A stretch of DNA of 64,000 bases, taken from the NCBI GenBank assembly GCA_022826945.1, contig JAJDTY010000075.1:1-64000 (forward strand). The letters are read 5' to 3'. The notes under the pieces are model-generated. The model was not told the DNA's origin and did not search any database. It worked only from the letters and a program-made list of their open reading frames with translations. Numbering within the stretch: position 1 is the first letter of the stretch; each line of letters starts with the position of its first letter. Source of the DNA: Candidatus Binatia bacterium. GTDB taxonomy: Bacteria > Desulfobacterota > Binatia > Bin18. Shown here in pieces: positions 10,847 through 14,911 of this stretch. The translations under genes and the position numbers were made by a program.

Positions 10847-11034
10847 ACTTCAATCCGAAGAGTCGAGTAAAGTAGAAACTCTCAATTCTTCGACTTCATT
10901 TCAGTCGTTAATACCAGCTCCAAATTTTAGCTTCCTTAATTCCCAATGTTCGGGGATCTCGCCTAACCATCCGACACCGGAGGACTTGCAGGCCGGGTAG
11001 GGTTTGAGGGTGTGGGTCGTGGCTGCGCGCTCGT

Positions 11035-11595
11035 CTAGTTCTGCCACCCTTTTGAACAATTACCTCTTCTATTACGGCTAAATTGCTCTCGGCTGTTGTC
11101 AGGCGGTGTTCCGTCTCTTCTCTGAAACGCTCGATGAATCCACTTGCGGATGTTTGTCGCTTGGCTTTCCCAATCGTAGATAAGTGCATAGGAATCATTC
11201 CTGGTGCGGTTATCTGCCAATCTCGGCGGTATTAGACGACGATTAAAGGTTCTTGCTCCAAAATTCGGATGGTTGGGAAGCAGGATACCCAGCAAACCAC
11301 ATCTAGGATTATTCTCAGTATCGCTCAAACTGGAACCAATCTCCCAATCCACATGCTTTCTCTTCCAGGTACAGCGGCCTATCAGCACAATCGTGACGGT
11401 TGCGTCGGGAATGAAATTGTCACGGATTCTCCGGCGAACTTCGTCCAGAGGGAGATTGCGGTCATCTATGTCTCCGTCTTTGACCGATTTATCTACAATG
11501 TCTCCTTTCATCATTTTGGCAAATCGCTCTTTGTACTTTTGGTCTTGATCGTGGTGGTAGCTGATGAAGACCTTATGTCTCTTGGTTTGAGGCAT
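11035..11595 (-). CDS. ThsB-like TIR domain protein (DUF1863-type)
   Basis: A 186-residue protein of the MTH538/ThsB-like TIR fold. It opens with KVFISYHHDQDQKYKERF, has a DATVTIVLIGRCTWKRKHVDWEIGSSL core in which W84-E85 matches the place of the catalytic Glu of ThsB-type TIRs, then GLLGILLPNHPNF and LIPPRLADN. The C-terminal half (ALIYDWESQATNIRKWIHRAF) ends in a DNSREQFSRNRRGN tail. ThsB TIRs in Thoeris make an NAD-derived signal on phage infection. No ThsA-type effector is present here. The start is two bases after the stop of the upstream gene, with a GAAGGAG inside that gene's end, so the two are translationally coupled. TIR family is clear; a defence role is inferred. Confidence 0.85.
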   Translation of the reverse strand: MPQTKRHKVFISYHHDQDQKYKERFAKMMKGDIVDKSVKDGDIDDRNLPLDEVRRRIRDNFIPDATVTIVLIGRCTWKRKHVDWEIGSSLSDTENNPRCGLLGILLPNHPNFGARTFNRRLIPPRLADNRTRNDSYALIYDWESQATNIRKWIHRAFQRRDGTPPDNSREQFSRNRRGNCSKGWQN

Positions 11596-11597
11596 TG

Positions 11598-12080
11598 CTA
11601 TTCTCCTTCGGCCTGTTCCAAATCGGTCAAATCTTCCACGCCAGCAATTTTTGCCAGCATACGGTTGTAGTTACGCAACTCGTCCTGCAATGCCACCAGT
11701 TCTTCACGAAACTTCTCCCGTTTAGTCTCGTCATCGAACGCGCCAGCCAAGGACTCCTTATGCCATTTTACGGTAAAAGGACGCACTACTTGGTTCAACA
11801 CGGGCACGGCAACCTTGCTGAATTGTATGGTTCTGCGTCCTCGCCGACGGAGAATCTCACGGGACGTTGAAAAAAGGGAATACACGCTGTCCAAAGCCGT
11901 TTTTTCGTCTCCCACTTCAATTGGCAAAGGCTGGGTAACGATTCTGGTCAGCATCTCAATATACAACTCCCAGGCTGCATCCCGGTCGGAGGTTTGGAAA
12001 GATATTTCCGCGCTGGCCCATTTTGGGCCTAACTGTATCTTCTCCAAACCGAAATTCTTGAACATTTTCTTGAGTTTCAT
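11598..12080 (-). CDS. TIR-associated protein of unknown function
   Basis: A 160-residue, mostly helical soluble protein that I cannot assign to a named family. It starts MKLKKMFKNFGLEKIQL and has an acidic/aromatic DRDAAWELYIEMLTRIVTQPL helix, a DEKTALDSVYSLFSTSREILRRRGR segment, an AVPVLNQVVRPFTVKWHKESL segment, and a C-terminal coiled-coil-like helix (FREELVALQDELRNYNRMLAKIAG). The ATG at 12080 has an AGGGG ribosome binding site; the longer open frame would overlap the fic gene. Its stop is two bases before the TIR start, so the pair is a tight operon. It is a candidate partner: regulator, sensor or effector of the TIR enzyme. That role is inference from coupling alone. Confidence 0.65.
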   Translation of the reverse strand: MKLKKMFKNFGLEKIQLGPKWASAEISFQTSDRDAAWELYIEMLTRIVTQPLPIEVGDEKTALDSVYSLFSTSREILRRRGRRTIQFSKVAVPVLNQVVRPFTVKWHKESLAGAFDDETKREKFREELVALQDELRNYNRMLAKIAGVEDLTDLEQAEGE

Positions 12081-12127: not shown

Positions 12128-13294
12128 TCACAATGCCTCGGTCCCCTCGTTGAGGATAGAAAGATACCCGTCGTAGACGAACACGCGGCCACGGCGCTTA
12201 CCAGTGATCTCGCGTGCGATTCCGTGTTGGACCAGCCGATTCATGGCCCCGGAGGCCGTTTGAAAGGACAATTGAGTGTCGCGTTGCGCTGCGGACAACG
12301 ACAGAATAGGCCGCGCCTTGAGCGCGTCGTGTATGCGTAGCACCGACCCGGCCCGCCGTCCTTCGGTTGTCTCAATTCGGCTGTGGTTATCCTGGAACAT
12401 GTGGGAGAGACGTTGAGCGGTCGAGACCGCACTCGTGGCCGTCAGGCGTACTCCTTCGAGAAAGAAGGACAGCCAGGACTCCCAGTCCCCAGTCTGGCGC
12501 ACCTGGTTCAGCAACTCGTAGTAGGTGGAGCGGTTCTGCTTAAAATACAGACTCAGGTACAAAAGTGGCTGGCTGAGTACACGAGCGTGGCATAACAGCA
12601 GGGTCACGAGCAATCGCCCCACGCGCCCGTTGCCGTCGAGGAAAGGGTGAATGGTCTCGAACTGCACATGCGCGAGTCCCGTTCGAAGCAGCACAGGAAG
12701 CCCGTCGTCCTCGGCGTGGAGAAAACGCTCGAACGCTGCCATACAGTCAGGCACGGCTGTATACGGAGGTGGGACAAAGGCGGCATTGCCGGGCCGAGTA
12801 CCGCCAATCCAGTTCTGCGAGCGGCGGAACTCGCCAGGGGTTTGGCCACTCCCCCGCCCGCGTGATAGCAGCACGCCGTGAATCTCGCGGAGCAAGCGAT
12901 TCGACAGTGGGAAGTTCTCCCGCAGGCGGCGCAACCCATGGTTGAGCGCCGCTACGTAGTTCGAGACTTCAATCACATCATCGAACGGAACTCCAGGCGC
13001 TTCGTCCAATTCAAAAAGCAAGAGGTCGGACAGCGACGACTGCGTTCCCTCAATCTGAGAGGAGAGCACCGCTTCCTTGCGCACATACGCGTAGAGAAAA
13101 AGCGCCTCGTCCGGCAGAAGGGTCGAGACGCCATCGAGCCGACCCAGGGCGAGTACCGCTGATTCAAGCGCCTGCTGTAACGGCCCGTCTAGGACCAGCG
13201 CCGGGTTTGGCGGGAGCGGTGCCGGCATAAAGGCTCTGACTCGCTCGCCCCCAACGCTCGTCACATCATACCTGCCGATTTCTCCGCGTTGCAT
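12128..13294 (-). CDS. Fic/DOC family AMP transferase
   Basis: A 388-residue Fic protein. The N-terminal Fic_N region carries the class II auto-inhibitory motif SSQIEG (E82), which blocks ATP until released. The catalytic loop HPFLDGNGRVGR (H216-R227) is intact, and a C-terminal winged-helix-like part (SGAMNRLVQHGIAREITGKRRGRVFVYDG) probably binds nucleic acid or DNA. Such proteins AMPylate Ser/Thr/Tyr of targets and are often found within type I restriction loci. Here the upstream gene is an hsdM remnant, so this Fic gene is probably what remains of such a locus. The downstream TIR-associated gene starts 47 bases later on the same strand. Confidence 0.9.
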   Translation of the reverse strand: MQRGEIGRYDVTSVGGERVRAFMPAPLPPNPALVLDGPLQQALESAVLALGRLDGVSTLLPDEALFLYAYVRKEAVLSSQIEGTQSSLSDLLLFELDEAPGVPFDDVIEVSNYVAALNHGLRRLRENFPLSNRLLREIHGVLLSRGRGSGQTPGEFRRSQNWIGGTRPGNAAFVPPPYTAVPDCMAAFERFLHAEDDGLPVLLRTGLAHVQFETIHPFLDGNGRVGRLLVTLLLCHARVLSQPLLYLSLYFKQNRSTYYELLNQVRQTGDWESWLSFFLEGVRLTATSAVSTAQRLSHMFQDNHSRIETTEGRRAGSVLRIHDALKARPILSLSAAQRDTQLSFQTASGAMNRLVQHGIAREITGKRRGRVFVYDGYLSILNEGTEAL

Positions 13295-13373: not shown

Positions 13374-13439
13374 AAGTCCGGTTGGGTATTGCCTGGTAAA
13401 GATCAGTCGGGTTGATCTCAAGTAGACTCAACCGGACTT
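13374..13439. repeat. Inverted repeat at the end of the hsdM remnant
   Basis: A perfect 11-bp inverted repeat (13374-13384 and 13429-13439), extendable to 14 bp with one mismatch. It encloses the stop codon of the hsdM fragment and a further imperfect copy of the same arm at 13405-13415. It could be a terminator-like structure or the scar of a rearrangement. Confidence 0.5.
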
Positions 13440-13864
13440 AATCGGCCTCCCCAAAACTGACCAGCTTTATTCAATAAGCCTTCGGTTTCTTTCTCTAGCG
13501 CTAGAATTTCGGCTGTCACTTCTTCCAAGGAGCGAAGCGGAGTGTTCTGATAGAAGTATTTGTTGAAGCTGATTTCATAGCCGATCTGGGTTTTGTCGAT
13601 ATTCAGCCAGACGTCTGCAACATGTGGGCGGACTTCACGCAGGCCCTCCGGGTCCAAATCGGTAAACCCGGCCTCTTCACGCTGAAAGCGGACTTCTTCG
13701 AGGACCGCGTCTTTGGAGTCTTCCAACAAACAGTCAAGGCGACGCAGCACGAACATGGGCAAGATGACATCACGGTATTTGCCCCGCACATAGACATTGC
13801 GCAAACAGTCATCGGTAATCGACCAGATAAAAGAGACGAGTTTATTGTGTCCGGTGTGGTCCAT
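13418..13864 (-). pseudogene. hsdM: Internally deleted type I restriction methylase (hsdM remnant)
   Basis: A 148-residue open frame joining the two ends of a type I HsdM. Residues 1 to about 76 match the HsdM N-terminal helical domain (SFIWSITDDCLRNVYVRG, VILPMFVLRRLDCLLE). From about residue 78 it jumps to the extreme C-terminus (VADVWLNIDKTQIGYEISF, LRSLEEVTAEILALEKETEG). The whole methyltransferase core, including the NPPF/NPPY motif, is missing, while intact HsdM is about 500-700 residues. The last 15 residues also look foreign to the family. The junction is near 13634-13642 and is in frame. No hsdS or hsdR is present. It cannot methylate DNA; it is a remnant, although a small expressed protein is possible. 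Confidence 0.8.
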
Positions 13865-13918
13865 TTTCTCTCTACCAGGCAGCGCGCCGCCTCTCCTTGG
13901 CTTCGTCGTATCTCCGAA

Positions 13919-13952
13919 GCCTGGATACCTGTTTTCGCAGGCATGACACAAT
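13919..13952. repeat. REP-like dispersed repeat
   Basis: This stretch resembles the common intergenic repeat whose translation gives PAKTGIQ/ENRYPGF-type peptides (consensus CCTGGATTCCCGCTTTCGCG and its extension). Here it is slightly degenerate and has a short CCTG...CAGG stem around TTTTCG. It sits just upstream of the hsdM remnant, where the flanking frame is open by chance. Confidence 0.55.
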
Positions 13953-14053: not shown

Positions 14054-14911
14054 ATGGACATTGGTGTATTCTGTTTCACGTCTGGCGAGTCGGCGGACCC
14101 TGCGATTGTGGCGAAAAAGGCCGAAGAACTGGGCTTTGCCTCGTTTTGGGTCCCGGAACATCCGATCCTGCCGGTGCATACGACCGTGGGCTATCCCATG
14201 GCTCCGGATCAGCCGATTCCGAGAACGATCGGGATTATTTCCGACCCGTTCGTGTCGCTGGCTCGGGCCTCGGCCACGACCACGAAAATCAAGCTGGGCA
14301 CAGGGATTTGTCTCGTGCCGGAACGTAACCCGTTGTTGCTGGCCAAAGAGATCTCCACGCTGGACCACTATTCGGGCGGGCGTTTTCTGTTTGGCATTGG
14401 GGCCGGCTGGCAAAAGGAAGAGTGCGAGATCATGGGCGGGGATTTTCCGCACCGTTGGACTCAGACCCGGGATTCGGTTCTGGCGATGAAAGAGCTGTGG
14501 ACTGCGGACGAGTCCGAATATCACGGCAGGTATTATGACTTTCCCGCGGTCAAATGCTTCCCCAAGCCGGCCCAAAATCCGCATCCACCCGTTATTCTGG
14601 GTGGCTCGGCCAAGAATGTGTTCAAACGGACGGTTGAGTGGGGTGACGGCTGGATGCCGGTCAGCACCTCGCCCGACGAGATTCGACACGGCCGCGAGAC
14701 CTTGAACGAGCTGGCCGCCCAAGCCGGGCGTGATCCCCAGTCTATCTCCGTTATCGCCTTTGGGCAGCCGGGGCAGTTGCACAGCCGGGACCAATCCCAG
14801 GCATTGGAGGAGGCCGGCGCGGAGCATGCCATTATCTGGCTCAACAAGCTTCAGGAAGAGGAGGTCATTCCGGAGTTAGAGGGGTTGGCTCAAGAGATGC
14901 TGGGCGCATAA
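14054..14911 (+). CDS. LLM-class flavin-dependent (F420-type) oxidoreductase
   Basis: A 285-residue luciferase-like monooxygenase of the F420-dependent TIGR03619 type. Visible features are the N-terminal MDIGVFCF strand, AEELGFASFWVPEH, the conserved substrate-side TTKIKLGTGICLVPERNPLLLAKEISTLD segment, SGGRFLFGIGAGW (phosphate-binding region) and the PHPPVILGGSAKNVF loop. It probably oxidises or reduces small organic molecules with F420 or FMN. The ATG at 14054 follows AGGAGGAG. A second flavin monooxygenase starts 20 bases downstream, so the two form an operon. Confidence 0.85.
   Translation: MDIGVFCFTSGESADPAIVAKKAEELGFASFWVPEHPILPVHTTVGYPMAPDQPIPRTIGIISDPFVSLARASATTTKIKLGTGICLVPERNPLLLAKEISTLDHYSGGRFLFGIGAGWQKEECEIMGGDFPHRWTQTRDSVLAMKELWTADESEYHGRYYDFPAVKCFPKPAQNPHPPVILGGSAKNVFKRTVEWGDGWMPVSTSPDEIRHGRETLNELAAQAGRDPQSISVIAFGQPGQLHSRDQSQALEEAGAEHAIIWLNKLQEEEVIPELEGLAQEMLGA

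Follow-up and report, generated by a model that had tools for sequence, protein, structure and literature searches.

What does a ThsB-type TIR protein do when the gene beside it encodes no recognizable ThsA and belongs to no family that can be named? The question is raised by two adjoining genes in a stretch of 64,000 nucleotides from Candidatus Binatia bacterium (assembly GCA_022826945.1, contig JAJDTY010000075.1, positions 1 to 64,000 of the forward strand; this whole stretch is called the window in what follows): a TIR gene and, upstream of it, the gene of a small protein that we call X. The answer that we favor, with a probability of about 0.45, is that the two proteins are the halves of a Thoeris-like immune signaling pair, in which the TIR would make the signal and X would receive it or act as the effector. 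The elements of the pair are the following (aa, amino acids; ORF, open reading frame).

11598..12080, minus strand: X, the all-helical TIR partner, 160 aa; an ORF for which no family name was found
11035..11595, minus strand: ThsB-type TIR, 186 aa, with W84-E85; an ORF downstream of X
11603..11608, minus strand: AAGGAG, ribosome-site-like sequence for the TIR gene, within the last codons of X; read directly from the sequence

Two bases separate the stop of X from the start of the TIR gene, the layout of one operon, and W84-E85 is present in the catalytic place of the TIR; both features were described in the original prediction and read back from the sequence as stated there. The best PADLOC match of the TIR is PDC-M50B (PDLC04688; 37.4 bits, 6.9e-10). 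For X itself, searches of Pfam, NCBIfam, PADLOC, PHROGs and the sequences of the PDB gave nothing convincing.

Linkage of X to TIR Genes

A genome-wide scan confirmed 249 relatives of X, spread over many phyla, of which the best 80 were kept, so that counts made on them lean to near kin. A TIR gene is found in the fetched flank at 59 of these 80 loci, and within 500 base pairs (bp) at 53; at 45 it is no more than 150 bp away and has the same orientation as X (the profiles used to detect TIRs were built from TIRs of the same 80 loci, which affects the detection of a TIR and not its position). The density of TIR genes is 0.78 per kilobase (kb) within 500 bp of X, 0.144 between 0.5 and 1 kb, 0.014-0.032 between 1 and 5 kb, and 0 beyond that. 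The 62 TIR ORFs that lie within 500 bp of X are on the same strand in 56 cases and on the opposite strand in 6. Where a ThsB-type TIR lies within 130 bp on the same strand (33 relatives), the ORFs overlap in 24, two of these overlaps exceeding 150 bp and depending on long ORF starts, and a gap of at most 53 bp is left in the other 9; X comes first in 15 of these pairs and the TIR in 18. The two relatives in IMG/VR contigs both adjoin a TIR gene. Of 9 plasmid neighborhoods, 8 hold one (three Streptomyces longwoodensis records being counted once), and the exception is a Ruegeria plasmid (L009).

Genomes were also drawn by phylum to lessen the bias toward near kin. X was found in 7 of 395 genomes of its own phylum and in 4 of 251, 5 of 299 and 7 of 199 genomes in the other draws (counts that include the seed genome), and is thus rare and patchy; its rarity is overstated, since two distant X genes of the own-phylum draw (L152, L157) escaped the A2 profile. 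Outside the seed genomes, the fetched flank of 16 of 19 X loci holds a TIR (5/6, 3/3, 2/4 and 6/6); in three of the 16 (L113, L135, L140) it lies 0.1 to 1 kb from X and is not its immediate neighbor, and at least three of the 19 (L129, L111, L136) are contigs already among the 80 (L018, L040, L055). The number of sampled loci fetched was 21; two of them, both lacking a TIR (L137, L141), lie inside seed genome G479 and were dropped. The X places of seed genomes G000, G477 and G480 were left out of the sample; there is a TIR near the one in G477 (L015) and none near the one in G480 (L071). A family whose members mostly lack a TIR neighbor, which is what would speak against the original prediction of a two-gene module, is the opposite of what these two counts, 53 of 80 and 16 of 19, describe.

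The association can also be counted from the TIR. PF08937 occurs in 57 of the 395 own-phylum genomes, and 5 of the 7 X places there (the window included) have one within 1 kb. Thirty PF08937 places in these genomes have E <1e-10. The X-linked TIR subfamily was defined as those scoring at least 100 bits with profile A4, together with the window's own TIR; the A4 training alignment contains the window TIR and that of L111 (same contig as L040). X adjoins 7 of the 8 subfamily TIRs, and the eighth, near a contig end (L161), is without X. None of the other 22 ThsB TIRs (below 50 bits or with no A4 score) adjoins X: one of them (L157) belongs to a TIR cluster that contains X at a distance of 1.3 kb, and the fetched flanks of the others hold no X. 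PDC-M50A (L146, L147) or SLOG-patatin genes (L148, L154) adjoin some of these other TIRs, and one stands beside a phospholipase by PADLOC match (L151). ThsB-type TIRs seem to share a partner slot that is variously filled, X being one of the fillings. The catalytic Glu is kept in all 34 aligned primary TIRs and in all 8 other TIRs that adjoin X.

X might be a passenger, a gene of unrelated function that belongs to genomic islands and travels with TIR genes; the 21 of 80 loci with no TIR in view are what this would lead one to expect. The same-strand, mostly overlapping layout of the ThsB-type pairs argues against it, and so do the near-obligate presence of X beside the subfamily TIRs and the lack of any other recurrent neighbor: among the 79 non-TIR neighbors scanned, the commonest Pfam families occur in 4 each, among the 25 commonest of 170 families listed. 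We regard a passenger as very improbable.

The TIRs that neighbor X are of unlike architecture: single ThsB TIRs, a TIR with a long C-terminal region in L002, a TIR-WD40 protein in L007 and, in Calothrix (L003), a TIR protein annotated as GUN4 that follows X after 15 bp. Such unlike TIRs would be expected to share a partner that touches the TIR domain itself, and this favors an alternative in which X is an adaptor or sensor that acts upstream, binding the TIR and controlling its assembly, with the TIR itself killing by depletion of nicotinamide adenine dinucleotide (NAD). Helical bundles are common interaction folds, and several are among the structure matches of X. Direct X-TIR binding is the main rival of the signaling pair and, although we do not prefer it, is quite possible; the patatin fusions described below are easier to understand with X coupled to an output.

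Some loci are more elaborate. TIR genes lie on both sides of X in L037, L038, L085, L092 (Poribacteria) and L138, where the X is surrounded by four TIR ORFs; in the four Poribacteria loci the second TIR retains the catalytic Glu. At Nitrosomonas and Methylomonas loci (L042, L079, L087, L090, L080, L052) the TIR is joined, by eye, to a domain of the formylglycine-generating-enzyme type, which has been linked elsewhere with diversity-generating retroelements.

Descent of the Pair

The tree of X mixes host phyla, and the type of TIR is nevertheless clustered on it: ThsB after X requires 4 changes vs 14.7 when shuffled, and ThsB before X 9 vs 17.2. Other TIRs (16 vs 17.2) and loci with no TIR (19 vs 22.0) are not clearly clustered. 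The distances among X proteins and among their TIRs correlate over 34 pairs (Mantel r 0.41, with 0 of 2000 permutations as high), a correlation to which shared descent of the hosts could contribute.

Fold, Conserved Residues and Fused Forms of X

The AlphaFold model of X is all-helical, as originally predicted, and confident (pLDDT 90.9, pTM 0.86). Compared with the PDB it yields no distinctive match; the fold matches are generic. The four-helical accessory protein of diversity-generating retroelements was considered as an identity for X: the X of the window has no Pfam match, and no search aimed at reverse transcriptase was made among the neighbors, for which the 25 commonest of 170 families were listed.

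The near-invariant residues of X are E42, R46, S65, R74, R100-P101 and W106. Across 37 diverse sequences A36, F70 and P101 are invariant, while each of the residues E42, R46, R74 and R100 occurs in 36; the one sequence without them, lacking all four, is the X of the Ruegeria plasmid (L009:5031-5525), which stands beside a transposase-like gene (by eye) and has no TIR in its flank. That the four are lost together hints, in this single case, at a single functional site which degenerates after loss of the TIR. Among 79 near-kin sequences R74 and R100 never vary; L058, a locus with no TIR in view, is without E42 and R46, and K46 replaces R46 in L019, where a TIR is present. The charged residues E42, R46, R74 and R100 may form one site.

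The stretch R100...H107 resembles the RX4-6H motif of HEPN ribonucleases, and X might on that account be a HEPN-like ribonuclease effector. The motif is not kept across the family, H107 being replaced by Q in 6 of the 37 diverse members, and we regard the idea as very improbable.

A patatin domain follows X in the same polypeptide in L005 and L010 (above the Pfam cut-off) and in L004, where the patatin match falls just under it (25.3 vs 27.7 bits); all three X-patatin loci have TIR genes in the flank. In a distant branch X carries an N-terminal transmembrane helix (L114, L115, L152, L157), as it does in Streptomyces (L006, L007); an N-terminal membrane helix is also seen by eye in the X of Aureispira (L176), which belongs to the distant branch. 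Because of the patatin fusions and the membrane-anchored forms, we would place X on the output side of the pair.

The Same Spot in Related Genomes

The pair of the window lies among the following genes and remnants, a setting of defense relics that agrees with the original description.

12128..13294, minus strand: Fic protein, upstream of X after a gap of 47 nucleotides (Pfam Fic_N 7.9e-27, Fic 2.4e-17; PADLOC SoFic 9.4e-118)
13418..13951, minus strand: N-terminal relic of hsdM, type I restriction-modification (HsdM_N 5.1e-12)
10901..11059, minus strand: hsdS-like N-terminal relic, overlapping the 3' end of the TIR gene in another frame; named by eye, with no Pfam match of its own

Fic and X are probably on one transcript. 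Farther out lies a luciferase-like gene (named by eye; 14054-14911, plus strand) with from 125 to at least 150 matches per genome in six genomes of the same genus, where its family is thus very greatly expanded.

The flanks of the window can be aligned with these six genomes at 89-96% identity, both flanks in G001, G002 and G004 and one in G003, G005 and G006 (the nearest named relative of X, in L014, is 86% identical and likewise comes from a Candidatus Binatia assembly). In G003 an 813-aa hsdM-like ORF (L094 10141-12582), which shares its start with the hsdM relic of the window, is followed by Fic, X, the TIR gene and hsdS-like ORFs. X and TIR also stand in G001, with another, differing Fic. 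In G004 approximately the first 21 residues of X are joined to a piece of the TIR, and G002 and G006 retain only scraps of the module. In G005 (L183:5981-7745) Fic is followed directly by an intact 187-aa TIR and then by a 457-aa hsdS-like ORF whose start is like that of the window relic; X is gone. This is one draft genome, in which an assembly fault is possible. The content thus differs among genomes of one genus, and the module belongs to a variable spot at which it has been lost or broken several times.

G005 bears on a further alternative, a toxin-antitoxin pair in which the TIR is an NAD-depleting toxin and X its inhibitor. The tight coupling and overlap of the two genes and the small size of the partner protein would suit such a pair; an intact TIR that has lost X between Fic and an hsdS-like ORF, the occurrence of X with no TIR in view, and the fusion of X to patatin do not. 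X is not likely to be an inhibitor, and we consider this alternative improbable. The original prediction had left the partner as effector, sensor or inhibitor, and it is the last of the three that now loses ground. Loss of X beside an intact TIR fits a TIR-binding adaptor and a signaling pair equally, and does not discriminate between them.

A Proposed Signaling Pair with a Membrane Output

The preferred reading, a Thoeris-like signaling pair, takes its division of labor from Thoeris, in which a nucleotide made by ThsB activates the operon partner (PMC11204291; PMC12847820): it is for this reason that the TIR is cast as sensor and signal maker, and X as receiver. On sensing infection the TIR, which is ThsB-type and retains its catalytic Glu, would convert NAD into a nucleotide signal. 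X, with its conserved charged cluster (E42, R46, R74, R100), would respond either to this nucleotide or to the TIR in its activated state, and the output of X would probably be exerted at the membrane, by X alone, through a membrane anchor or through a fused effector; signal-induced membrane perturbation is described for type II Thoeris effectors (PMC12847820). What is observed is the pair, its layout, its recurrence over phyla, the conserved residues of both proteins and the anchored and fused forms of X; that the TIR is an NADase, that it makes a signal, that X binds this signal and works at the membrane, and that the pair defends against phages are inferences. A more specific version makes X the first of a new class of receptors that recognize TIR-made nucleotide signals: the conserved Glu/Arg cluster of its helical bundle would bind an NAD-derived messenger, and X would then damage membranes directly, via the N-terminal transmembrane helix or via the fused patatin; on balance this is rather doubtful.

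Several facts weigh against this reading of the pair. X has no recognizable nucleotide-binding or enzymatic domain. The X of the window has no transmembrane helix, and among the 80 near-kin X only that of L092 passes the same test; the patatin fusions were seen at only three loci, all on rhizobial plasmids. X can also stand apart from a TIR, as the loci without one in view establish: no TIR is in the fetched flank at 21 of 80 loci (some of these flanks are short) nor within 500 bp in 26 of 80 tree rows, and in genome G482, the source of one TIR-less locus (L033), there is no match to PF08937, other TIR families not having been searched there. Finally, the module is unstable at its spot: intact X is present in G001 and G003 and missing from the other four of the six same-genus genomes (G002, G004, G005, G006).

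The immune systems of bacteria, plants and animals all make use of TIR signaling, and each new partner brings to light further signals and further means of killing an infected cell. X is an uncatalogued partner found in many phyla and on plasmids, and its membrane-anchored and phospholipase-fused versions point to a membrane output. The existence, within one genus, of intact pairs and of a natural loss of X suggests ready-made comparisons. X is absent from every library searched, and family-based defense finders are therefore likely to miss the pair.

Comparison with Known Systems

With Thoeris types I and II the pair shares a ThsB-type TIR with a catalytic Glu (E85 here), an operon with a second gene, and a patchy distribution; the membrane-anchored forms of X recall, in addition, the TM-macro ThsA (TM, transmembrane) of type II. 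It differs in the partner: ThsA is SIR2-SLOG or TM-macro, and X has no SIR2, SLOG or macro match in Pfam. The absence of a ThsA, SLOG or SIR2 partner, noted originally, agrees with the lack of any Pfam match for X and of SIR2_2 on contig C8; STALD and ThsA_Macro gave no match in the genome either, in searches whose controls were silent as well. Two SIR2_2 genes are found elsewhere in the genome (G000 C3:10670-11092, in a frame of 999 aa, and C78:77608-78015, in a frame of 309 aa), and a SIR2_2 partner acting in trans is possible. Type IV Thoeris also has a TIR-made signal and an operon partner, there a caspase-like protease (PMC12847820); X has no protease match in Pfam.

The PADLOC candidate system PDC-M50 combines M50A with a ThsB-like M50B, and the window likewise pairs an M50B-like TIR with a small partner; neither X nor five of its relatives has a PADLOC match to M50A, which is found instead beside other own-phylum ThsB TIRs. 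The TIRs beside SLOG-patatin genes resemble the pair in having a phospholipase next to a ThsB TIR, some forms of X being fused to patatin; there, it is SLOG that precedes patatin, whereas in the rhizobial fusions it is X. The SLATT and effector-associated domains of conflict systems also form, according to published work, small modules linked to TIR and other signaling genes. The X of the window matches no Pfam model, and a distant relative (L131) scores against SLATT_5 at E 0.02 and 14.4 bits, the cut-off being 60.

The original prediction of a two-gene TIR defense or toxin module unlike known Thoeris thus survives in part. The pair is real, its partner is in no library searched, and the linkage extends far beyond this genome; it is not a local oddity, X being a widespread family beside several TIR architectures, and a toxin module with X as inhibitor is disfavored. 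In its partner the pair differs from Thoeris types I, II and IV; a type VI, likewise with a TIR-made signal, is named in print (PMC13232231) and may already include X. With that proviso, and as far as the libraries searched can tell, the pair is probably a two-part defense switch of an uncatalogued kind. If X is a receptor of the new class considered above, it and the ThsB-type TIRs would make up an additional Thoeris-like type, shared widely, whose output differs from those of SIR2, macro and caspase effectors.
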